23,336 bases of DNA from the IMG/VR virus record IMGVR_UViG_3300044679_000049, positions 1-23,336 of that record; one strand, 5' to 3'. The stretch comes from a virus. The notes under the pieces are model-generated. The model was not told the origin of the DNA. It searched no databases and was given only the letters and a program-made list of their open reading frames with translations. The translations under genes and the position numbers were made by a program. Shown here piece by piece: positions 2,607 through 13,547 of the stretch; the stretch's first letter is position 1; every line of letters starts with the position of its first letter.

Positions 2607-3122
2607 GTGGGATTCAAGAAGCGCGTACCCGGCGGACCGCCTCCGGGGAGCAAGAATGCGGCGCAGACTGCGGCGCAGCACGAGAAGGACGAGAAGGCGT
2701 GGAGCCTGTCTCTCACCGGGGCGTCGTACAGCCAGATCGCCAAGCTCCTCGGTTACGCTGACGGCTCCGGTGCGTGCAAGGCAGTCAAGCGCGTCATCGA
2801 GCGCATGCAGGTCACACGGCTCAACAAGGACGAGAAGATCGCGCAGTCGAAGGCGCGCCTCGAACGGCTCCTGTTCGCTATCGCGCCGATGACCCAGGCC
2901 ACGCCCGCGAACCCGCAGACGGGTGCCGGCGCCAGAAGCCCTGACCTCAAGGCCGTCGCGCGCGCCGAGAGCATCAACATGAACATCGCCAAGCTCGAAG
3001 GCTTGCTCAAGGACATCGTCGAGCTGACGGGCGAGAACGGCGGCCCGCTCACGACCGTAGGCGCGACGGTCGACTGGTCCACCATCCAGGCGATCATGGA
3101 GAAGAACAAGGCCACGGAGTAG
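2607..3122 (+). CDS. Terminase small subunit (probable)
   Basis: GTG start 6 nt after GAGG; 171 residues. A basic, Gly/Pro-rich N-terminus leads into a helix-turn-helix region at about 31-67 (AWSLSLTGASYSQIAKLLGY...ACKAVKRVIERM), the form seen in phage DNA-recognition subunits. It is followed by a charged helical stretch (DEKIAQSKARLERLLF), a Pro/Ala linker and a C-terminal helical region with NMNIAKLEGLLKDIVEL. Small terminase subunits bind the packaging site on concatemeric DNA and deliver it to the large subunit. Position 14 nt before the large subunit supports the call. Sequence families of small terminases are very diverse, so the call rests on HTH plus context. Confidence 0.75.
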   Translation: MGFKKRVPGGPPPGSKNAAQTAAQHEKDEKAWSLSLTGASYSQIAKLLGYADGSGACKAVKRVIERMQVTRLNKDEKIAQSKARLERLLFAIAPMTQATPANPQTGAGARSPDLKAVARAESINMNIAKLEGLLKDIVELTGENGGPLTTVGATVDWSTIQAIMEKNKATE

Positions 3123-3136
3123 GCTGAGGCTCGCCC

Positions 3137-4972
3137 ATGAGCGCCGCGGTCTCCCAGGTCACGTGCTCCGACTGCTTCACGAGCCCGTGCGACTGCGAGC
3201 CCGCGGGGGCCGACGCTGCCAGCGCCGCGCAGGCGTTTGGAGGAGTGCAGGCCGCCGTCGCCGTGTACCAGGCGATCCCCGAGTACATCGAGCCGCCCGC
3301 GCCCGTGAAGCCCAGCGTTCCCGTGCGCACGGGGCCGAGCCCGGAAGACCTCGCGCGCGCCATCGCCGACTTCCCGCGCTTCTGCGCACTGCTCCAGGTC
3401 TCCAACATCGACGGCGGCCCGCGCATCCCGATGGAGCTGACGTGGATGCAGCGTCAGTTCCACCGCAACAGGACCAAGCGCGACATCTTGCTCAAGGCCC
3501 GGCGTGTGTTCGCGACGACCTTCGAGTGCGCGCGTGACATCTGGTGGTTCCTCACCGTGAGGGGTGCGCAGGTCGTCATCGTCATCCAGCACGAAGAGGC
3601 GCCGCACCCCGTGCGGACCTCCATCTACGACAAGATCCGCATCTTCTTCTGGTCGTTGAGGCAGTGGGGCATCCAGCTCCCGTTCGACGTCGAGGAGGAT
3701 GGGCGGTGGGAGATGCACGACCGCGACGCGAGCATGCGCGTGGTGGTGGCAGGTGGCAACGTGACGGCGGCTGCGACGCGCGGCCGCGGCGCCACCATCA
3801 ACCGGCTCCACATGAGCGAGGTCTCCTCGTACGCCTACGCGATCGAGACGACGACGGCGATGCTCAACTCGATGCCGCGCGGCGCCGACGCCGTGACGGA
3901 AGTGGTGCAGGAGAGCACGGCGATGGGCGCGGCCGGCTACTTCTACGACCAGTACAAGAGCGCACGCATCGGTCCTCCGCCTCCCGGCGAGACGAACGAG
4001 TGGAACGGGTACCGGGCGCACTTCTACCCCTGGCACTCGCACCCGAAGAACACGCTGCCGCTGCGTCCCGGCGAGGTCATCACGCCGACGGGGGCGCTGG
4101 AAGTGCAGGAGCGGGCGCTGCTGGCGCAGGGCGTGAAGCCCGAGCAGATCAAGTGGCTGCGGCAGACGTTCAGCGAGTCGGGCAACCGGCTGGACCTGCT
4201 CAACCAGGAGCACCCGTCGGACGAGATCACGTGCTGGCTCATCGACGGGCGGCCGTTCTTCGACCCGCGCCGCATCGAGGAGTCGCTCGGTGTCGCGCGC
4301 ACGCCGCTCAAAGACCTACCCGCCATGGGCCCGAGCGAAGAGGTGAAGCTGCTGCATGCGCGAGGCACGCTGCGCGTGTGGGAGCTGCCGAAGCCCGGCG
4401 CCGTGTACGTTGTTGGTGCGGACTCTGCCGAGGGCGGCGGCGGGGACTACTCGGCCGGGCTCGTGTTCGAGAAGGGCACGGGCAAGCACGTCGCGACGCT
4501 CCACGGGCAGATCATCCCCTACGAGTTCGCCGCCGCCCTCGCCCGCGTTGCCGTGTTCTACAACGGGGCCAAGATCGCCATCGAGCGCAACGCGCCGGGC
4601 CCCGCCGTCATCCAGGCGTTCTCGATCATGCCTGAGCTTCTCGCGTTCAACGCACACCAGCTCCTGTGGTGGGCGGACGACGGGAAGCCCGGCTGGCACA
4701 CGAACGAGGCGACCCGCTCGCCCATGCTCGACGGGATGGATGCGGCGCACCGCTCCCGCATCTTCGAGACCAGCGACCTGAAGCTGCTGGAGGAGATGCG
4801 CTCCTTCGTCATCGACAAGAACGGCAAGCCTACCGCGACCCGAGGCAAGCACGACGACCTCGTGATGGCAGGGGCGATTGGCTGGGCCGTGTGCACGCGC
4901 TCCGGCGGCGCCGGCATCACGGTGGGCGGCTGGACGCCGGGCATTTCGATCGACGACCTGACCGTGGGCTAG
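3137..4972 (+). CDS. Terminase large subunit (Mu gp28-like)
   Basis: A 611-residue packaging motor with ATPase and nuclease domains. ATG follows GAGG at 7 nt. The N-terminus holds a Cys cluster (C10, C13, C18, C20) unusual for the family, then a linker to about 90. The Walker-A-like segment is K120-ARRVFATT, which lacks the usual glycine. The Walker B equivalent is INRLHMSE with Glu228 as probable catalytic acid. The RNase H-like nuclease begins at VVGADSAEGGGGDYS (Asp429, Glu432, Asp437), continues with AIERN (Glu483) and ends with GKHDDLVMAGAIGWAV (Asp573/Asp574), all typical of terminase nuclease centres. It cuts concatemers and drives DNA through the portal. Its stop shares the palindrome CTAG with the stop of a minus-strand ORF. 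Confidence 0.93.
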   Translation: MSAAVSQVTCSDCFTSPCDCEPAGADAASAAQAFGGVQAAVAVYQAIPEYIEPPAPVKPSVPVRTGPSPEDLARAIADFPRFCALLQVSNIDGGPRIPMELTWMQRQFHRNRTKRDILLKARRVFATTFECARDIWWFLTVRGAQVVIVIQHEEAPHPVRTSIYDKIRIFFWSLRQWGIQLPFDVEEDGRWEMHDRDASMRVVVAGGNVTAAATRGRGATINRLHMSEVSSYAYAIETTTAMLNSMPRGADAVTEVVQESTAMGAAGYFYDQYKSARIGPPPPGETNEWNGYRAHFYPWHSHPKNTLPLRPGEVITPTGALEVQERALLAQGVKPEQIKWLRQTFSESGNRLDLLNQEHPSDEITCWLIDGRPFFDPRRIEESLGVARTPLKDLPAMGPSEEVKLLHARGTLRVWELPKPGAVYVVGADSAEGGGGDYSAGLVFEKGTGKHVATLHGQIIPYEFAAALARVAVFYNGAKIAIERNAPGPAVIQAFSIMPELLAFNAHQLLWWADDGKPGWHTNEATRSPMLDGMDAAHRSRIFETSDLKLLEEMRSFVIDKNGKPTATRGKHDDLVMAGAIGWAVCTRSGGAGITVGGWTPGISIDDLTVG

Positions 4973-5160
4973 TGCGCCGTGCACTCGCAGCACCCGCACT
5001 CCGGGTCTGCGCACGGGATCGAGTGCCCGCATGGGCACGCAACACCCATCGCGTTCACGACCACGCGCAGGACGTGCCTCCAGGGCGACAGGGCCAGCAT
5101 GGCTCTCAGCACCTCGGCAGTCCACGCAAGGTCCGCCTCGGCCGCGAACTCGCGTCCCAT
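4969..5160 (-). CDS. Minus-strand 63-aa Cys-rich protein
   Basis: A minus-strand ORF in the 346-nt gap between terminase and portal. It begins MGREFAAEADLAWTAEVL and ends with CPCGHSIPCADPECGCCEC, a dense Cys/His cluster that could bind zinc. Third codon positions are almost all G/C on this strand (about 54 of 61 by hand count), as in real genes here, and the gap has no plausible plus-strand gene. Its TAG shares CTAG with the terminase stop, so the two converge. No strong ribosome site is visible (only GGCGGG upstream). Function unknown. Confidence 0.5.
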   Translation of the reverse strand: MGREFAAEADLAWTAEVLRAMLALSPWRHVLRVVVNAMGVACPCGHSIPCADPECGCCECTAH

Positions 5161-5179
5161 GTGCTGCCCGCCAATCGGA

Positions 5180-5320
5180 TCACCGTCCAGACCGCCTCCT
5201 CTTCGCGTCCCGAGTCGCGCGCTCCAGCAACGTCAGCATCCGCTCCATGTCCGCGTCCAGCTTACCAAAGCCGGCGCCGGGTGTGAGCCCTCGAACTTTT
5301 CCACTCTCACGAGGCTCCAT
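5180..5320 (-). CDS. Minus-strand 46-aa basic protein (doubtful start)
   Basis: Lies just upstream (on the minus strand) of the Cys-rich ORF. If it starts at the ATG within CCATGG (5317-5322), the same palindrome supplies the portal ATG on the other strand. The product ends LDADMERMLTLLERATRDAKRRRSGR, a helix with a very basic tail. The first nine codons have weak third-position G/C, so translation may begin at an internal ATG (MERMLTLL...). Together with the neighbouring ORF it would form a two-gene inverted cassette. No family is recognised. Confidence 0.35.
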   Translation of the reverse strand: MEPRESGKVRGLTPGAGFGKLDADMERMLTLLERATRDAKRRRSGR

Positions 5321-7802
5321 GGCCAAGCGTAGTGCCTCCCCCACCCCCCGCCGACCTCGCGGCGGAGGCACGGGTCTCGCGCTCCGCACCGCCCCTCGTT
5401 CTGCTCCCGGTACGGGTGTGGGCTTCGCGCGCACGCTCAAGAACCCGCCCATCCCGGTCACCGTCACGTACCCGTCGGGCAGGTCCAACCCGAGGCAGGG
5501 CGTAGGCTCGGGCAAGCTCCCGGGTGAGGCCGTGCCGCGGCCCGACGGCGCTCCGCGCGCGACGGCACCCATCGACGTCTCGTTCTCGCAGGGGGCGGTT
5601 GCTCCCTGGCCGCTCATCGACCGCTACCCGTGGGTCGTTGGGCAGGATCTCAACCTCACCTACATCGCCAACGTCTTCCGGCTCGCGACGACCGGGTACC
5701 GGCAGCAGCTTGTCGACCTGCTCAACGAGCTGATGGAGCAGGACCCGCACCTGTTCTCGGTCGTGCAGAAGCGCGTCCTGAGTACGGCGAACGGACGGCT
5801 GGAGATTCGGCCCTTCGACTTGCCCGAGGACGACCCCGACTACCAGTTGGCGCAGGACACGGCCGACTTCGTGCGTGGGGAGATGGCGCGCATCCCCAAC
5901 CTCACGCAGAGCCTCGCCTCGCTGCTCTGGGGCCTGTTCTACGCGGTCAGCGCGAGCGAGATCATGTGGACGCGGGACGGCGACGGGTGGCACGTCGACC
6001 GGCTCCAGATGGTGCACTCGCGCCGCCTCAGCTACCCCGACTACCAGAACTGGTCGCTCTACATCTGGGACCAGGGCCAGGTCTACGGCTGGCAGTCGCC
6101 GTGGGGCGCGCAGCCGACCAACTCCCAGGTGTTCGGCACCAAGATCGCGGACTGGCCCGGGAAGTTCATCGTCTACGCCCCTCAGCTCCGCGGCGACTAC
6201 CCGACCCGCGAGGGCATCGGGCGGCAGGTGGCGACGTGGGCCACGTTCAAGCGCATCTCGGGCCGTGGCGGGTCGGTGTACCTGGAGCGCTTCGCCAAGG
6301 GCTTCATGGACTTGGTCTACAGCACGACCAACACGGGCAATCCGCGCGAGGCGACCAAGGAAGACATCTCGCTCGCGCAGCAGATCGGCGCTTCCATCGG
6401 CCCCGGCTCGGGCTCCCAGGCCGTGCACCCGGACTCGATCGTGCTCGCGCCCAAGAGCTACGAGCAGCCGGGCACAGCGAAGCTCACGTGGAGCGAGTGG
6501 CTCTCCATCTGCAACGCCGAGATGAGCAAGGCGGCGCTGGGCGGCACGCTGGGCACGGAGGTCGGGAGCACGGGCGGCAACCGCGCGCTCGGCGAGGTGC
6601 AGGAGCGCGGCGAAGTGGACCTGGAGCAGTACGACGCCACGACGCTCGCCGAGGCCATCCGTACGGACATCGTGACGTGGCTCGTGCGGCTCAACCGTCC
6701 GCAGGCACTCCACGTCGTGCCCCACGTGTTCATCAACGTCGACGTCGAGCCGGACGCCAAGAGCGTCATCGCCAACGCCAAGGAGATGACGCAGATCGGC
6801 TGTCCCGTCGACGCCGACGCGCTCTCCGACCAGACGGGCATCGCGCTCGTGCCTCAGGAAGACGCGGACGAGAAGGACGCGGACGGCAAGAGCACGGGCA
6901 AGAAGTCCGACCCCAAGCCGCGTCGCACGTACTGGAGTGACGTGGTGGACCCGCACACGGTCGACCCCACGCTCATGTCCGACGAGGCCAAGCAGCAGGC
7001 CCAGGACAAGATCGACTCGGACCACGACCTCGCGGTCCAGAAGCTCCAGCAGCCGGTCATCGCCGGGGCCGGCGCCAAGGGCCCTCCGGGCACCAAGGGG
7101 TCTCCGGGCACCAAGGGGTCTCCGGCCAAGAAGCCTGCCTCGGGCACCCGTCCCAAGGCTCCACCCAAGCGCATGCACGTGCAGGCCGTGGTCGACGCGC
7201 TGGACTCGGAGCGCCTGATTCTGCTCGTCGACGACCGCCGCATCCGCATGGTCGACATGGCAGAGGTCGACGACGACCGGGCCATGCGCCGGCTTCTGAA
7301 GGACGCCCAGGCCCAGGAGGTCTACAACGAGCTGCTGGAGGACTACCCGGCCGGGTCGCTCGGCTGGATCTTGTCGGGGCACTGGACCGGGCCGACCGAC
7401 ATCGACACCGACGACATCGACACCTCCAGCGCCAACAAGTGGCGCGCGTCGCACGAAGACATCACGCCCTACGTCGAGCGCATCGAGGCTGGGCGGCGCA
7501 AGCCCATCGTGCTCGTCAAGACGCCCGGCAACCCGAAGTACATCATCGTCGACGGGCACCACCGCTACCTCGCCAACGTGAAGCTCGGGCAGCCGGTGCT
7601 CGCGTACTTCGCCATCGTGCACACGGACGTGGGCCCGTGGGACGAACTGCACGACATGCAGAAAAAGGGCAGCTCCCGCGGCTCCTGGGCCGGTGAGGGC
7701 AGTCCGTCCTGGACCGCGTCCAATGCCCCGAGCTGGGGTGCGGGGGCGAGTTCGTACACTGGGCCGCCGCCGCATCCCCTCGACGAAGCCTCCAACACCT
7801 GA
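5319..7802 (+). CDS. Portal protein (DUF935/Mu gp29-like) fused to a ParB/Srx-like domain
   Basis: An 827-residue protein starting at ATG 5319; the open frame runs further upstream but that part is unlike protein. Residues 1-95 are basic, Pro/Gly-rich and disordered. About 100-560 is the portal: YRQQLVDLLNELMEQDPHLFSVVQKRVLS, WGLFYAVSASEIMW and NAEMSKAALGGTLGTE are typical of the DUF935 family, the dodecameric ring through which DNA passes and to which the neck binds. A linker at about 585-612 contains GPPGTKGSPGTKGSPAKKP, a collagen-like stretch encoded by an 18-bp tandem repeat. The C-terminus (about 712-770) has RKPIVLVK...YIIVDGHHRYLANVKLGQPV with D745-GHHR749, the signature of ParB/sulfiredoxin-like domains. 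A 55-residue Gly/Ser/Pro tail follows. It is much longer than usual Mu-type portals, which are around 500 residues. Confidence 0.88.
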   Translation: MAKRSASPTPRRPRGGGTGLALRTAPRSAPGTGVGFARTLKNPPIPVTVTYPSGRSNPRQGVGSGKLPGEAVPRPDGAPRATAPIDVSFSQGAVAPWPLIDRYPWVVGQDLNLTYIANVFRLATTGYRQQLVDLLNELMEQDPHLFSVVQKRVLSTANGRLEIRPFDLPEDDPDYQLAQDTADFVRGEMARIPNLTQSLASLLWGLFYAVSASEIMWTRDGDGWHVDRLQMVHSRRLSYPDYQNWSLYIWDQGQVYGWQSPWGAQPTNSQVFGTKIADWPGKFIVYAPQLRGDYPTREGIGRQVATWATFKRISGRGGSVYLERFAKGFMDLVYSTTNTGNPREATKEDISLAQQIGASIGPGSGSQAVHPDSIVLAPKSYEQPGTAKLTWSEWLSICNAEMSKAALGGTLGTEVGSTGGNRALGEVQERGEVDLEQYDATTLAEAIRTDIVTWLVRLNRPQALHVVPHVFINVDVEPDAKSVIANAKEMTQIGCPVDADALSDQTGIALVPQEDADEKDADGKSTGKKSDPKPRRTYWSDVVDPHTVDPTLMSDEAKQQAQDKIDSDHDLAVQKLQQPVIAGAGAKGPPGTKGSPGTKGSPAKKPASGTRPKAPPKRMHVQAVVDALDSERLILLVDDRRIRMVDMAEVDDDRAMRRLLKDAQAQEVYNELLEDYPAGSLGWILSGHWTGPTDIDTDDIDTSSANKWRASHEDITPYVERIEAGRRKPIVLVKTPGNPKYIIVDGHHRYLANVKLGQPVLAYFAIVHTDVGPWDELHDMQKKGSSRGSWAGEGSPSWTASNAPSWGAGASSYTGPPPHPLDEASNT
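7088..7123 (+). repeat. 18-bp tandem repeat encoding a collagen-like linker
   Basis: Two identical 18-bp units (7088-7105 and 7106-7123) in the portal gene. They encode Gly-x-y triplets (GTKGSP) and extend a preceding GAKGPP. Slippage here would change linker length without shifting frame. Confidence 0.8.
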
Positions 7803-7830: not shown

Positions 7831-8481
7831 ATGACCAAGCTGCGCGTTCTCGTCTTCACGGCACTCGTTGCCGCCTGCCTCGGTGTCGCCTGCCTCTGCA
7901 CGATGCCGGCGTGCACTCCGAGCGCTACCACGACCACGCTGCTGCCCGAGGCTGGCTGGTCGGCGCCGAGTCCGCCCGACCCCAGCGCTCCGCACAAGCT
8001 CGGGATGAACTTGCTGAACACGTACGAGGTCGCGGCGAACGTGGCCCAGATGGGCTTCGTCGACTGGAACAAGACCACGGCCGACCTCTCCACGACGCAG
8101 GATGCGGGCGGTACGGAGACGGCCATCGGCATCATCGGCGCCGGCCCCGTCAACATCCCGGTCGGTGCGGTGACGTTCAATCCGGCCGCGGCCCTAACGG
8201 CGAGCGACACGAACAACGCTGTCCTCAACGTCTACAAGCGCAACGCACCCGACGGCGGTGGAGGGACGACGCAGACGCTGCTCGCCAGTGCCTCGACCTT
8301 CACGCCGGGCAAGGACGGGGGCACGGGTAGCTGGAACCCGTTCACTCCCGTCGTGTTCACGCTGGTCGCGGGCGCGTTCGTGGCGCCCGGCGACTGCATC
8401 ACGATCCAGATCGCCAAGAACGGCACCACGGGTGTGAGCGTTCCGCAAGGCCAGCTCAACATCTACACGACGCTGAACTGA
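7831..8481 (+). CDS. Secreted or lipoprotein-like protein in the head cluster
   Basis: ATG at 7831 has GAGGA about 11 nt upstream; the frame is open earlier but overlaps the portal end and is unlike protein. The 216-residue product begins with a basic n-region and a hydrophobic segment, MTKLRVLVFTALVAACLGVAC, with possible lipobox cysteines at 16, 21 and 28 (LVAAC is the best). The mature part is strand-rich and Thr/Gly/Asn-rich. Its C-terminal segment (about 105-216: NIPVGAVTFNP, NAVLNVYKRNA, VAPGDCITIQIAKNGTTGVSVPQGQL) looks like a beta-sandwich of the sort found in phage surface proteins. An export signal between portal and protease is unexpected. It may be a membrane-anchored moron or a virion surface protein whose hydrophobic N-terminus is not a true signal. 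Confidence 0.7.
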   Translation: MTKLRVLVFTALVAACLGVACLCTMPACTPSATTTTLLPEAGWSAPSPPDPSAPHKLGMNLLNTYEVAANVAQMGFVDWNKTTADLSTTQDAGGTETAIGIIGAGPVNIPVGAVTFNPAAALTASDTNNAVLNVYKRNAPDGGGGTTQTLLASASTFTPGKDGGTGSWNPFTPVVFTLVAGAFVAPGDCITIQIAKNGTTGVSVPQGQLNIYTTLN

Positions 8482-8486
8482 CGCAC

Positions 8487-10541
8487 GTGCGCTGGATCGA
8501 CTCACCGCTGAAGCGTCGCGTCCTCCAGACGACGCCCGAGCTTGCGAAGGAGCAGCACGTGCTCCTGTCGAACGCGCCGGGCGTGCTCCTGGACTTGGGC
8601 GTGGCCGACGTGCACACCCCGAGCACGCTGCGGCCGATGGGCGGCGGCGACTCGCACGTCGCGCCGGGGCCGACGCCTCCGTCCGACACGGGCACGGGAG
8701 GGGGCAACGCAGGCCCCCGCGGCGCGACGAGCGCGCCTCCCGGCTCCGAGCCGAGTCCGGGACCGGGCGACGACAAGGACAAGGCGGGCAAGAAGAAGAC
8801 TGCGAAGGCCGCGCAGCGCCGCGGCATGAAGACGGTCAAGATCCGCGGCCAGCTCGGGCCCGGTGGGTCGCTGCACGTGAGGCACATCAGCATGGATGCG
8901 AAGGACACGCAGCGAGTCATCCAGATGCGCGACGGCTCGATGTCGCTGCGCGACGTCCGTCCGATCAAGCGCGGCGACGAGGTCGACCCGGCAGCGGTCG
9001 GTGTCACGCTCAAGGGTCCGGCGACGTACGCGGACGGCACGGAGAAGAAGCTCGTCTGGATCCAGCTCGCCGAGTGCGGCGCCTGGAACGGACACCCCTC
9101 GGGGCCGTTCCAGATGACCCCGGCGACGTTCTCCGAGATCGCCAAGAACTTCGACGCGCGGGGACTCCCCGTACCGTTCGACTACGAGCACTTCAGCGAG
9201 GTCCCCAACCCGCCTCCGGGTGCGGTCGAGAGCGGGACGCCTGCTCCGGCCTGGGTGCACCGGCTCGACAACCGCGGCATCGGCGGCCTCTGGGGCCTGA
9301 CCGAGTGGCTGGAGAAGGCGCGGGCCCAGATCCATGCGGGGGAGTACGCGTACCTCAGTCCGGCCATCCGCTTCGGGTCCAAGGACCCGAAGACCAACGC
9401 GCAGGTCGGCGCCAAGCTCACGTCGGTTGCGCTGACCAACCAGCCGTTCCTCACCGGGCTCGAAGGACTGCGGGCGGCGAAGGACGGCGTGTACGCGACC
9501 ATCATCGACGGCGTTCCTGTCGTGGCCATGGCTGGGCGCGCGCCCGGGTTCCACGAGGTCGCGCTGTCGCAGCCGCACGAGTACATGCCCGCGCTCCGTG
9601 CCGCGCTGCGCATGCCCGACATCGCCACGCACGGCGAGATGAAGGACCACGTCGACCGCCTGCGCGAGTGCTGCATGAACGCGGACGGCAACGGCATGCA
9701 CGAGGGCGTGGACCTCCGCGCCACGTACCTCAATTCCCTCGCGACCGTCAGCGGCGCGGGCGCCGCCAGCACCCCCACGGACATCCTCGACGCGGTCGAG
9801 CGCATGATCGACGCGGCGATGGCCCGGCACGAAGCCACGATGCACCCCGGGATGCGCGACGCGCCCGACCCGGACGACACGGAACCCAACCCCATCCCTG
9901 CACCGGATCACGAGGACACGACCATGGACGCAACGCTGCTCAAGAGCCACATCGACGCCGCGACGGCGCCCCTGAACACGAAGGTCACGGAGCTGGAGAA
10001 CACCAAGGGCCAGCTCACGACGCAGCTCAAGGACGCCACCGCTGCGAAGGACACGGCCGTGGGCATCGTCGACGGCGCGCTGAAGGTGCTGAAGGACGCG
10101 GGCATCGAGCCCAAGGCCAACGAGACGCTGGCCGGCGTGGTCGCCCGCGTGGCCGAGGACAACAAGGCGCTCCTGGCCGACAAGGTCAAGCGCGAGGAGG
10201 CCGACATCAACGCCGATGTCGAGCGGGCCTTCGTCACGTACAAGGACGTGAAGAAGCTGTCGGACAAGGACAAGCCGTCCATGCTCGACCACCGCAAGGC
10301 GCACGTGGCGTCGTTCAACGCCACGTACCCGCCCGTGGGCGCGGACCAGATGCACCTGCTCCGCAGCATCACGCCGACCGAGAGCCGCGAGGAGAACGGG
10401 CAGCCGCCGCCCCAGGCCCTCAGCTTCACGGGCCTCACGGCCAAGCTCATGAGCGAGGAGAAGCTCAGCGTCTCCGACGCGCAGGAGAAGGCCGCCAAGA
10501 TCATCGCCGGCAAGATCCCGTACCCGGCGCCCAAGAAGTAG
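8487..10541 (+). CDS. Head maturation protease and scaffold (Mu gpI-like)
   Basis: A 684-residue protein from GTG 8487. The protease domain (about 165-330) matches Mu gpI-like peptidases: WIQLAECGAWNGHPSGPFQMT, VPFDYEHF with His235, APAWVHRL, YAYLSPAIRF with Ser291, then LTSVALTNQPFLTGLEGL. His235 and Ser291 are conserved positions and likely catalytic. The C-terminal third (from about 480) is Ala/Lys/Glu-rich and helical, like a scaffold, with its own in-frame start. Residues 1-115 are an extension: a segment LDLGVADVHTPSTL (35-48) almost identical to part of the second capsid protein, then a Gly/Pro/Lys-rich linker. Such enzymes line the procapsid, cleave scaffold and other head proteins, and then themselves. 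Confidence 0.9.
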   Translation: MRWIDSPLKRRVLQTTPELAKEQHVLLSNAPGVLLDLGVADVHTPSTLRPMGGGDSHVAPGPTPPSDTGTGGGNAGPRGATSAPPGSEPSPGPGDDKDKAGKKKTAKAAQRRGMKTVKIRGQLGPGGSLHVRHISMDAKDTQRVIQMRDGSMSLRDVRPIKRGDEVDPAAVGVTLKGPATYADGTEKKLVWIQLAECGAWNGHPSGPFQMTPATFSEIAKNFDARGLPVPFDYEHFSEVPNPPPGAVESGTPAPAWVHRLDNRGIGGLWGLTEWLEKARAQIHAGEYAYLSPAIRFGSKDPKTNAQVGAKLTSVALTNQPFLTGLEGLRAAKDGVYATIIDGVPVVAMAGRAPGFHEVALSQPHEYMPALRAALRMPDIATHGEMKDHVDRLRECCMNADGNGMHEGVDLRATYLNSLATVSGAGAASTPTDILDAVERMIDAAMARHEATMHPGMRDAPDPDDTEPNPIPAPDHEDTTMDATLLKSHIDAATAPLNTKVTELENTKGQLTTQLKDATAAKDTAVGIVDGALKVLKDAGIEPKANETLAGVVARVAEDNKALLADKVKREEADINADVERAFVTYKDVKKLSDKDKPSMLDHRKAHVASFNATYPPVGADQMHLLRSITPTESREENGQPPPQALSFTGLTAKLMSEEKLSVSDAQEKAAKIIAGKIPYPAPKK
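9924..10541 (+). CDS. Nested scaffold protein (internal in-frame start)
   Basis: ATG at 9924 is codon 480 of the protease gene. It has GAGGA (9912-9916) with a 7-nt spacer, better than the site of the full-length GTG. The resulting 205-residue protein begins MDATLLKSHIDAATAP and is long, charged and helical (KVTELENTKGQLTTQLKDATAAKDTA), as expected of a scaffold. Phage lambda C/Nu3 and Mu I/Z use the same arrangement, in which the 3' part of the protease gene is also made separately in excess. A Pro/Asp-rich linker (MRDAPDPDDTEPNPIPAPDHED) just before the start marks the domain border. Confidence 0.65.
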   Translation: MDATLLKSHIDAATAPLNTKVTELENTKGQLTTQLKDATAAKDTAVGIVDGALKVLKDAGIEPKANETLAGVVARVAEDNKALLADKVKREEADINADVERAFVTYKDVKKLSDKDKPSMLDHRKAHVASFNATYPPVGADQMHLLRSITPTESREENGQPPPQALSFTGLTAKLMSEEKLSVSDAQEKAAKIIAGKIPYPAPKK

Positions 10542-10543
10542 TC

Positions 10544-11689
10544 GTGGCCGCCTCGCCCACCATCATCCGCGACCTGCGCGGACGGTCTGTCGGCTTCCTC
10601 GACGACGACGCCGTGCGCGACGCGTCAGGGGACGCCGTCGCTCGCCCCGTGCTGCACGGCGACGAACGGGACGTGGCACGGCTCGCTCGCGTCGCGTCGC
10701 GGACGATGGGTGGGGCGCGCTCCCAGGGGCTCAACGGCAACAAGGTGCTCCTGGACCTCGCGCCGGGAGACGTCGCGACGGCGCAGACGGAGGCGGACTA
10801 CGGCACGCCGCTCACCGAGTTCATCGCGGACACGGTGTGCCCCGTGCGCATGGTCTCCCATGACCGCGGGTACTACTACCTGGAGAACATCGGCAACACG
10901 ACGCAGCTCGTTCTCTGCAACACGTCGACCGACGGCGAGCCGCCCGAGATCAACCCGGGGTTCGCCAAGACGCTGTTTCAGACGACGGGCTACGCGCTCG
11001 CCGCCAAGCTGCCCAAGGAGTTGCTCGCCAACGCTGACTTCGACTTGAAGGCGCGTGTGCTGCGGCTGCTGTGCGAGAAGCTGATGCTGGCGCGCGAAGT
11101 GCGCGTCGCCACGCTGCTCACGACCAGCACCAACTACGCCGCAGCCAACCGCGTCGCCGCCGCGGCGAAGTGGAACGGTGCCGTCACCACGTCCATCAAC
11201 GTGCTCGGCGACTTGTTCGCGGCGATGGCGCTGTCGTACCTCCCTGCCAACACCGTCGTGCTGTCCGAGGGCATCGCGCAGTACTTCTTCCAGCAGACCG
11301 CCGCGGGGCCCGCGGGTGCCGGTACCCAGCAGCCCACGAGCGTGCGCGACTACGTGATGGCGGGGGGCAAGCTGCCGAAGCAGGTGTACGCACCGCGTCA
11401 GTACCTATCGGGTGGCTCGCTGGCGTACGTGTGGTCGCCGGCCAAGCCCGCCAACGTGCCCGTGCTCCGCGTGGTCGAGGACCCGGTGTCGGACGTCGGC
11501 ACCGCCGTCACCTTCCGCTGGACCGGGAGCAAGGGCGCCAAGGACATCATCGACACGGTCAACGGCGTGATGGTGCGGTTCTACTGGCACCCCCAGGACA
11601 TGTCCTACTGGATGGTCGTGGCGCACAACGACGTCGACGTCATCCTTTCCAACCAGGTCGGCGCCGTCATCACGGGCGCCCTCGCGTAG
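10544..11689 (+). CDS. Major capsid-like protein 1 (HK97 fold, probable)
   Basis: A 381-residue protein from GTG 10544, 2 nt after the protease stop; the ribosome site (AAGAAG) is weak. Recognised mainly by homology to the capsid-like protein encoded at 12279-13547. Both have a segment of the form xxDL...IAD...P, a motif E-(I/V)-NP followed about 20 residues later by LP-x-E and NAD, R-E-x-RV-x-x-LL, then VTFRWTG and a C-terminal (V)VxHND(I/V)xVxxSNxVG. Residue positions here: DL at 71-72, EINP 135-138, KLPKELLANAD 155-165, REVRVATLL 184-192, VTFRWTG 322-328, AHNDVDV 360-366. It has a shorter N-terminal arm than the second protein. It could be the hexon or a minor (pentamer) capsid subunit. 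Confidence 0.78.
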   Translation: MAASPTIIRDLRGRSVGFLDDDAVRDASGDAVARPVLHGDERDVARLARVASRTMGGARSQGLNGNKVLLDLAPGDVATAQTEADYGTPLTEFIADTVCPVRMVSHDRGYYYLENIGNTTQLVLCNTSTDGEPPEINPGFAKTLFQTTGYALAAKLPKELLANADFDLKARVLRLLCEKLMLAREVRVATLLTTSTNYAAANRVAAAAKWNGAVTTSINVLGDLFAAMALSYLPANTVVLSEGIAQYFFQQTAAGPAGAGTQQPTSVRDYVMAGGKLPKQVYAPRQYLSGGSLAYVWSPAKPANVPVLRVVEDPVSDVGTAVTFRWTGSKGAKDIIDTVNGVMVRFYWHPQDMSYWMVVAHNDVDVILSNQVGAVITGALA

Positions 11690-11769: not shown

Positions 11770-12198
11770 ATGAGTGCCACCGACTTCCTCTACCCGCGTT
11801 TCCCGATCCAGGGCGCGGACATCCCCGTCAAGAACACCTCCGGCACGGCGTGGACCGTGGGGCAGCTCCTCAAGATGGACTCCGCGAACGTCGTGTCCGC
11901 GACGCAGCCGCAGATCGGCGCCATCATCACGGCGGCCGTGACGGACATTCCGTTCGGCTTCGCCATCGAGGCCACGCCCGCGTCGGGGCAGGGTCGGTGC
12001 CAGATCGCCGGCATCATGTACGGACTCGGTGTGGCCGCGGGCGTCACCGCGGGCGCCACCGTCGGCCCGTCCGGCTCCGTCTCGGGGCAGATCGTCGCCT
12101 ACACGGCGACCGACCCGTACGCCGGTCAGGCGCTCACGGCCGGCGTCAGCGCAGCCGACCCCGTGCTCGTGCACATCATGCCCGGCATCACGGCGTAG
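11770..12198 (+). CDS. Capsid decoration protein (DUF2190-like)
   Basis: A 142-residue protein from ATG 11770 with AAGGA 10 nt upstream; the open frame before it is a shadow of capsid gene 1. The sequence is small, Gly/Ala/Val-rich and strand-rich, with repeated patterns of the form GxAxTVGQLLKM, IGAIITAAVTDIPFGFAIE, GIMYGLGVAAGVTAGATVGPSG and an ending AVSAADPVLVHIMPG-type strand. This alternation is typical of capsid cement proteins such as DUF2190, which bind the outside of the shell and stabilise it. Its place between the two capsid genes supports the call. A hairpin follows the stop. Confidence 0.75.
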   Translation: MSATDFLYPRFPIQGADIPVKNTSGTAWTVGQLLKMDSANVVSATQPQIGAIITAAVTDIPFGFAIEATPASGQGRCQIAGIMYGLGVAAGVTAGATVGPSGSVSGQIVAYTATDPYAGQALTAGVSAADPVLVHIMPGITA

Positions 12199-12278: not shown

Positions 12279-13547
12279 ATGAACACCCATCTGATGAGCA
12301 TGAAGGACGCGAAGACCGGACGCGTCGAGTACATGGACCCGGCCACCGCCAAGGTCTACGCCGACGCGCAGGGCGCGACCTTCCTCCGGCAGATGGAGGA
12401 GGTGGAGTTCGTGCTGGGCGACAAGGGCGTGCCCCTCCGCGACCCGCACACCAACGCTCCCATCCACCGCAGCGCCCTCGTCGCCGTGGCGCAGGAGCAC
12501 TACTACGGGCAGGCCGCGCGCCTCATGGGTGCGAAGAAGTACCCGGTCGGCATGACGGACGAGGCTGGACAGCTCGTCACGATGGACCTCGGCATCGCCG
12601 ACGTGCACACGCCGGCCACGCTGCCCAACTACGCGGGCGGCTACCGGATCGCCGAGTCCATCGCGGACCTCGCGAGCCCCGTCATCCCCGTCGCCAAGCA
12701 GTCCGACGTCTACTACACGTGGAACGTGCAGAGCGACTTCAACCGCAAGCTCGGAGTCTCGGGGTCGCCCGGGTCGGCCGTGCCCGAGGTCAACCCGAGC
12801 ATCTCGAACGCCACGTACTCGGCCGTCGAGTACGCGCTGGCCGGGTTCCTGCCCACGGAAGTGCAGGCGAACGCGGACACGCCGCTCCAGCCCTTCGCCA
12901 AGCTCACGCAGGTCGTGGTCGACGCGCTGCGCCTGGAGCGCGAGTACCGCGTGTCCGTGCTGCTCCAGACGTCGGGCACCTGGACCTCGTCGCTCGTGCA
13001 GACGCTCGCCGCGGGCACGCAGTGGGACGGGGGCGCCTCGTCCGACCCCGTCGCGAACTTGCACAAGGCGATCGAGCAGTCGTACATGCCCATCACCGGC
13101 ATCTTCATGTCGGAGCTGGTGCTGCACGACTTCCTCCGCAACCCGGCGGTGCAGAAGTACTTCACCTACAAGGACCCGGTGAAGGGGCTGCCCAGCCCGG
13201 CCGACGTCGCGGACACGCTCGGGCTGCCGCCCATCAACGTCTCGACCATGAAGTATCTCACGGGCGGCGGCGTGCTCACGTACATGTGGGGCAACCACGT
13301 CGTGCTCACGCACGAGCCGAAGACGATGCCGCCCACGACCCAGATGGACGTGGCGTCGAACGTCACCTTCCGCTGGACCGGGGGCGAGGCGCCGGACGGG
13401 ACGCTGACGGGCGGGCTGCTCGTGCGGACCTACTACGACCCCAAGCGCGGTGCGCGCGGCGGGACGCAGATCGTGGTCGTCCACAACGACATCGAGGTCC
13501 AGACCTCGAACCTCGTGGGCGGCTTGATCCTCAACGCCCATATCTAG
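12279..13547 (+). CDS. Major capsid-like protein 2 (HK97 fold, probable)
   Basis: A 422-residue protein from ATG 12279, with AAGAGAG upstream. The N-terminal arm (1-100) is helical and charged (YMDPATAKVYADAQGATFLRQ), like the cleaved delta/N-arm region of HK97-type subunits. Then come MDLGIADVHTPATL (102-115), ESIADLASPVIPV, VNPS and LPTEVQANAD, DALRLEREYRVSVLLQTS (215-232), and a C-terminal VTFRWTG (362-368) and VVVHNDIEVQTSNLVGG. It is clearly paralogous to the protein at 10544-11689. Being longer and having its own gap-flanked transcript segment, it is the better candidate for the main shell protein. Two hairpins follow the gene. Confidence 0.82.
   Translation: MNTHLMSMKDAKTGRVEYMDPATAKVYADAQGATFLRQMEEVEFVLGDKGVPLRDPHTNAPIHRSALVAVAQEHYYGQAARLMGAKKYPVGMTDEAGQLVTMDLGIADVHTPATLPNYAGGYRIAESIADLASPVIPVAKQSDVYYTWNVQSDFNRKLGVSGSPGSAVPEVNPSISNATYSAVEYALAGFLPTEVQANADTPLQPFAKLTQVVVDALRLEREYRVSVLLQTSGTWTSSLVQTLAAGTQWDGGASSDPVANLHKAIEQSYMPITGIFMSELVLHDFLRNPAVQKYFTYKDPVKGLPSPADVADTLGLPPINVSTMKYLTGGGVLTYMWGNHVVLTHEPKTMPPTTQMDVASNVTFRWTGGEAPDGTLTGGLLVRTYYDPKRGARGGTQIVVVHNDIEVQTSNLVGGLILNAHI

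Follow-up and report, generated by a model that had tools for sequence, protein, structure and literature searches.

The question raised by this locus is why a phage head maturation protease should carry, outside its protease domain, a short segment that is also found in the capsid protein encoded a few genes downstream. The window (the whole 23,336-base virus record that was analyzed) contains a Mu-like head gene block, the features of which are given here in order, with the strand where it bears on the reading.

3137–4972, terminase
Within 5031–7802, Mu-like portal (PF06074)
Ending at 8481, protein of unknown function, encoded by the gene before the protease
8547–8552, plus strand, Shine-Dalgarno-like AAGGAG with a 6-base spacer to GTG 8559, read from the sequence
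8559–10541, plus strand, head maturation protease with a C-terminal scaffold-like part (PF10123, phrog_328)
8586–8630, plus strand, capsid-mimic motif in the protease, LLDLGVADVHTPSTL (44.4 bits)
8631–8825, plus strand, Gly/Pro/Lys-rich linker, from the translation (pLDDT about 35–45)
9090–9734, plus strand, protease domain (PF10123 match, residues 202–416 counted from 8487)
9735–10541, plus strand, C-terminal scaffold-like part without a motif copy (best motif score 10.4 bits)
10544–11689, plus strand, capsid protein 1 (cap1), HK97-like (phrog_1005, E 2.7e-15)
10748–10792, plus strand, motif copy in cap1, LLDLAPGDVATAQTE (21.1 bits)
11770–12198, plus strand, small protein between the capsid genes, from the translation
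12279–13547, plus strand, capsid protein 2 (cap2), HK97-like (phrog_1005, E 8.9e-37, residues 106–372), with the core starting from about residue 106
12579–12623, plus strand, motif copy in cap2, TMDLGIADVHTPATL, at the start of the capsid core (N-arm; 48.5 bits)

Positions 8589–8630 of the protease gene encode LDLGVADVHTPSTL and positions 12582–12623 of cap2 encode MDLGIADVHTPATL, with 11 of 14 residues and 34 of 42 bases being identical, the three differences being L/M, V/I, and S/A, and the flanks being dissimilar. The initial annotation had thus placed the two segments and judged their near-identity correctly; its diverged equivalent in cap1 is real, and the segment does lie outside the PF10123 domain. 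The Gly-rich stretch that it described after the motif in both proteins is not common to them in the window (GGGD vs NYAGGY); in the relatives L011 and L020, the match between protease and capsid continues through YAAGY. The bit scores listed above for the three copies were obtained with a profile made from other phages' capsid copies, with the window excluded. When all six frames of the window were searched with the capsid-motif profile, only cap2, the protease, and cap1 stood out, the next place scoring 10.7 bits, and among 20,000 shuffled versions of the protease N-terminus, none scored above 18.9 bits with a profile that included the window's own cap2. The motif match in the window exceeds chance, and its consensus reads [LM]D[LI]GxxDVHx(P/D). 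A signal common to all head proteins was considered and rejected, the portal, the small protein, and the pre-protease gene of the window being without a copy. The portal frame (5031–7802) has a ParB-like C-terminal stretch (phrog_4715 and phrog_2159, with weak E-values).

The protein that carries the segment is, by its profile matches, a PF10123 protease, the Mu-like_Pro model scoring 82.7 bits (E 4.5e-23; cut-off 25.2) and the phrog_328 head maturation protease profile giving an E-value of 4.1e-25. The longest open frame runs from GTG 8487 to 10541, and because of the good ribosome site AAGGAG and its 6-base spacer, the protease probably starts at GTG 8559 instead, so that the protein begins MLLSNAPGVLLDLGVADVHTPST. 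From that start the motif occupies residues 11–24, near the N-terminus as in several relatives, and the earlier numbering of residues 35–48 is to be corrected accordingly, the motif itself being real. The linker that follows it takes the position at which many relatives have a Nudix (PF00293) and/or a DUF6582 (PF20223) domain. Within the protease domain, His 235 of DYEHFSE and Ser 291 of LSPAIRF (both counted from 8487) are intact in the window and invariant in the alignments of relatives, and have a putative catalytic role. As regards an assemblin-like fold, the best matches of the protease in a fold search were two herpesvirus proteases, those of KSHV and HSV-1, which were weak (E 0.02, probability 0.94, TM 0.25–0.32). 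For the C-terminal part, a scaffold role is suggested by analogy with the I/Z arrangement of Mu.

On the capsid side, the motif of cap2 sits where the phrog_1005 profile match begins (residue 106). It aligns with the extreme N-terminus of those relatives' capsids that have no extra arm, with the short armless capsids retaining its second half and with DVH being invariant in 12 of 12 capsids, and it marks the exact boundary between a variable N-arm of about 24–125 residues and the conserved capsid core. The profile start, the armless-capsid alignment, and the invariant DVH thus identify the capsid motif, at the level of sequence comparison, as the N-arm with which the HK97-like core begins. A capsid model computed from 12 sequences has a mean pLDDT of 47, which is too poor for placing the motif, and the capsid profile, when searched against PDB sequences, returned no matches. 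In the AlphaFold model of the protease, the N-terminal tail is unstructured (pLDDT about 35–41) and has no confident placement. The two capsid genes, both of phrog_1005, are related tandem genes with the small protein between them, in the window as in its close relatives L003–L011. L010 and others have one capsid gene only, and cap1 therefore looks like a duplicate that arose within the window's subclade. A family search run on a sub-range of the sequence gave no match for the small protein (11770–12198), which from its position may be cement- or decoration-like.

If the resemblance were an accident of this one record, the segment should be missing from the proteases of homologous phages, which the initial annotation had offered as the observation that would count against its significance. 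It is instead present in the protease in 26 independent related phage genomes, the window included, lying N-terminal to the protease domain in all of them, either at or near the start of the protein or after an extra N-terminal domain, which is often Nudix. The close relatives L003–L011, which were found via cap2, have the gene order of the window, and the motif is present in every genome of this group whose protease N-terminus is covered, with the following protease sequences as examples.

L003, VTTKPILLDLAPSDVHTPSSM
L005, MTEKVTLDLSAGEVHTPSTI
L007, VPTETVQMDLSVGSVHTTSAS
L009, AFAMDLGPGDVHTPGSP
L010, AHLMDLGVYDVHVPGAM
L011, VVEMDLSVGDVHAPSSIGQYAAGY

Each protease, cap1, and cap2 of this group has one copy, the 20 matches scoring 35.9–48.4 bits and the next one 10.8 bits with a profile built from those same copies; the cap1 motif is kept throughout, except in L010, which is without cap1. 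A wider set was gathered by scans with protease and capsid-core alignments, and the capsid-core scan, the patterns of which exclude the motif, yielded 8 more motif proteases as scored with a capsid-only profile. In 15 whole contigs (23–138 kb) searched for the motif, it was found only in protease- and capsid-sized frames and in one 31-residue frame. The protease motif occurs in 26 of the 30 genomes with a strong capsid motif vs none of the four with a decayed one, an association that gives a Fisher P of 0.0015, not corrected for descent. The copy in L026 is partial (GQADVHAD). The four proteases without the motif beside a strong capsid motif are those of L027, L029, L074, and L080, and those beside a decayed capsid motif are from L030, L037, L089, and L092. 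In a protease tree made from an earlier set, before the last genomes were added, the motif clusters, with a few apparent losses. No member of the clade was found among the phage records searched, which held only distant capsids of about 22–26% identity; when genome contigs were scanned, the capsid alignment detected no relatives and the protease alignment detected two remote ones, both without the motif. The clade has no cultured member, and many of its genomes are incomplete metagenome contigs. In L074 (2623–5720), the protease, small protein, and capsid genes lie in one stop-free frame (2630–6049), with TTAGC at four gene boundaries, where TAG is out of frame by one T, and with the later genes ending in TGA; this joined frame may represent a polyprotein, recoding, or a sequence artifact.

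The two copies are not merely retained together but also change together. The BLOSUM similarity between the protease and capsid motifs of the same genome is 44.15, compared with 34.69 ± 1.32 for permuted pairs, with 0 of 200,000 permutations being as high; removal of the four most striking genomes leaves the signal in place (P 1.5e-5), and the own capsid motif is closer than that of the nearest relative (Wilcoxon P 0.021), it being understood that the permutation and association tests remove shared ancestry only in part. Among the pairs are YDVHVPGAM/YDVHIPSAM in L010, LLDIGVVDVHRD/LLDIGVADVHRD in L025, and FADIGPGDVH/FADLGPSDVH in L063, and L073 has LLDLGPSDVH in both proteins alike. At shared residues, 57% of the codons are identical in own pairs vs 54% in cross-genome pairs, which argues against a recent gene conversion and against a nucleic-acid element. 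A DNA or RNA element was rejected on this ground, synonymous codons not being held in common within genomes. Together, these comparisons indicate that the protease and capsid peptides co-evolve and that their likeness is kept at the protein level.

This bears directly on the simplest account of the segment, namely, a functionless neutral or recent duplication, or a repeated conversion of the protease gene by the capsid gene. Such an origin would fit the adjoining position of the two genes and the 34 of 42 identical bases in the window. It is difficult to reconcile with a motif present in 26 lineages while the remaining N-terminus has become unalignable or has been replaced, with the near-equal synonymous codon sharing within and between genomes (0.57 vs 0.54), and with retention of the motif on either side of inserted domains. 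Neutral duplication was therefore rejected, the motif being conserved, co-varying with the capsid, and mobile yet not lost, and we regard this account as very improbable.

The inserted domains themselves are informative with respect to what is constant in this region. A Nudix domain (PF00293) was found in the protease of seven relatives (L003, L005, L007, L009, L010, L011, and L025), and DUF6582 in five of eight protease proteins scanned. The order is motif–Nudix–protease in L003, L005, L007, L011, L020 (read from the sequence), and L025, Nudix–motif–protease in L009 and L010, and motif–protease with no Nudix in the window, L023, L024, and L028. Since the motif is retained while Nudix sits before it, after it, or is absent, it is the one fixed element in a protease N-terminal region that is exchangeable in other respects. 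A limited search of the literature found no description of a Nudix–head protease fusion or of a capsid segment in a head protease. In L011 (6026–6250), an in-frame stop lies within the Nudix domain, leaving the motif on a 74-residue fragment, which may reflect a sequencing error or decay. In L019 (7557–8007), a Cys-rich stretch (CAKCRYL...CCNAF) precedes the protease motif at the place where Nudix would be.

In the model that we favor, the segment acts as a short linear motif for docking, with the head protease imitating the N-arm of the phage's own capsid protein, a reading towards which we lean with modest confidence. The protease and the capsid retain these 15 residues in common and alter them in parallel, so the two copies most likely have the same partner. 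For the capsid copy this is most plausibly another capsid subunit, and the shared partner would accordingly be the capsid lattice, with incorporation of the protease as the effect, such that the protease copy probably has the role of seating the enzyme in the shell as it grows. Carried on the flexible N-terminal tail, it would compete for, or fill, the contact that the N-arm makes with a capsid subunit or with some other N-arm-binding part of the procapsid, and this docking would bring the protease into or onto the interior of the procapsid shell before cutting occurs; in many relatives, the fused Nudix enzyme would be carried along with the docked protease. The absence of the protease motif where the capsid motif is degraded (0 of 4) speaks in favor of this model, and the motif-less proteases of L027, L029, L074, and L080 imply that a head of this type can do without the motif. 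Should the N-arm and its protease copy be bound not by the shell but by some third component (the scaffold part or the portal, for example), the same co-variation would be expected from any N-arm binder; there is nothing specific in favor of this arrangement, no candidate having been identified here, and we consider it improbable. Encapsulin cargo-loading peptides are comparable in that an enzyme is brought by a short peptide to the inside surface of an HK97-fold shell; unlike the protease motif, those peptides are not copies of a segment of the shell.

Of the two ideas put forward in the initial annotation, the putative docking through a capsid-like contact is the better one, and the other, a shared cleavage site for maturation, has been weakened. 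According to the latter, the protease would recognize the motif, cut beside it, and remove the capsid N-arms together with its own N-terminal part. This is consistent with the motif lying precisely where the variable N-arm gives way to the conserved core of the capsid, copies of a cleavage site would co-evolve with the specificity of the protease, and the capsid targeting sequences of T4 are also processed (PMC9026906). It is less likely, however, because the protease–scaffold junction, where a release cut is expected, has no copy in ten genomes (best score 10.4 bits vs 16–49 bits for true copies). Furthermore, in L005, L007, L024, and L077, where only about 3–6 residues precede the motif, a cut would do little; the capsid motif persists unaltered in relatives whose protease has no copy; and the armless short capsids keep the second half of the motif, which is therefore structural. 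Overall, cleavage at the motif is rather unlikely, and a variant of it could combine targeting and cutting in a single peptide, by analogy with T4.

A further possibility is that the tail copy acts as a pseudosubstrate or autoinhibitor, which fills the active site until it is displaced by the capsid N-arms, so that cutting takes place only in a filled procapsid. The copy and its co-variation would then be explained by both peptides binding the same active-site groove, and the tail is flexible in the model. The weaknesses of the cleavage model nonetheless apply, since the capsid motif would have to be a substrate: a copy at the junction is predicted and is missing in the same ten genomes, and motifs placed so close to the N-terminus are left unexplained. 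Anywhere from about 67 to 398 residues separate the motif from the protease domain, and the AlphaFold model gives the tail no confident place, making this possibility less probable still than a shared cleavage site.

Among known systems, the closest in kind is the capsid targeting sequence (CTS) of T4, a short N-terminal peptide that directs the internal proteins IPI–III into the prohead (PMC9026906). The CTS associates with the core, and the gp21 protease cleaves it off after a glutamyl residue. A targeting role of its own has been suggested for the propeptide of gp21 (PMC9026906), and the same review describes gp21 autocleavage as a major gap and prohead targeting by the propeptide as only speculation (PMC9026906). 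The motif described here resembles the CTS in being a short peptide near the N-terminus (in the window if GTG 8559 is the start, and in L003, L005, L007, and L024). It differs in copying the N-arm of the capsid itself, in that its targeting function and any cleavage at it are putative, and in not being common to other packaged proteins, as judged from the protease- and capsid-sized frames recovered in the whole-contig search. From sequence comparison, the motif would work like a capsid targeting sequence and be related in kind to that of T4 without being a member of that class.

The protease itself, with its PF10123 domain, C-terminal scaffold-like extension, and order of head genes, resembles the protease I/scaffold Z of phage Mu. 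In the remote PF10123-type relatives examined (JBD67, JBD30, L030–L033, and similar ones), the N-terminal motif is absent; in the window's clade, it is an addition to the common plan, frequently joined by Nudix or DUF6582 domains. In the solved structure of the Mu-like phage JBD30, the N-arm of the capsid protein reaches a neighboring capsomer (PMC11445458) and changes on maturation from a helix to an extended hook (PMC11445458). The JBD30 capsid, unlike those of the window's clade, belongs to another family, so that its N-arm contacts serve as an analogy; in the part of the JBD30 protease that was examined, there is no copy of the motif.

Little is understood of the way in which maturation proteases get into procapsids, and a 15-residue peptide that is common to protease and capsid and co-varies over 26 genomes points to a specific contact. 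With this motif, protease entry becomes testable by means of peptides, point mutants, or fusions. For this large uncultured Mu-like clade, we propose, tentatively and with less assurance than the docking motif itself, that a co-evolving copy of the capsid N-arm recruits the protease into the lattice and that the same tag also carries the fused Nudix enzyme. The motif may also be of use as a short tag with which enzymes are loaded into phage heads, something that, to judge from the Nudix fusions, nature has already done, and, if the proposal is true, the maturation protease would be recruited by mimicry of a shell subunit.
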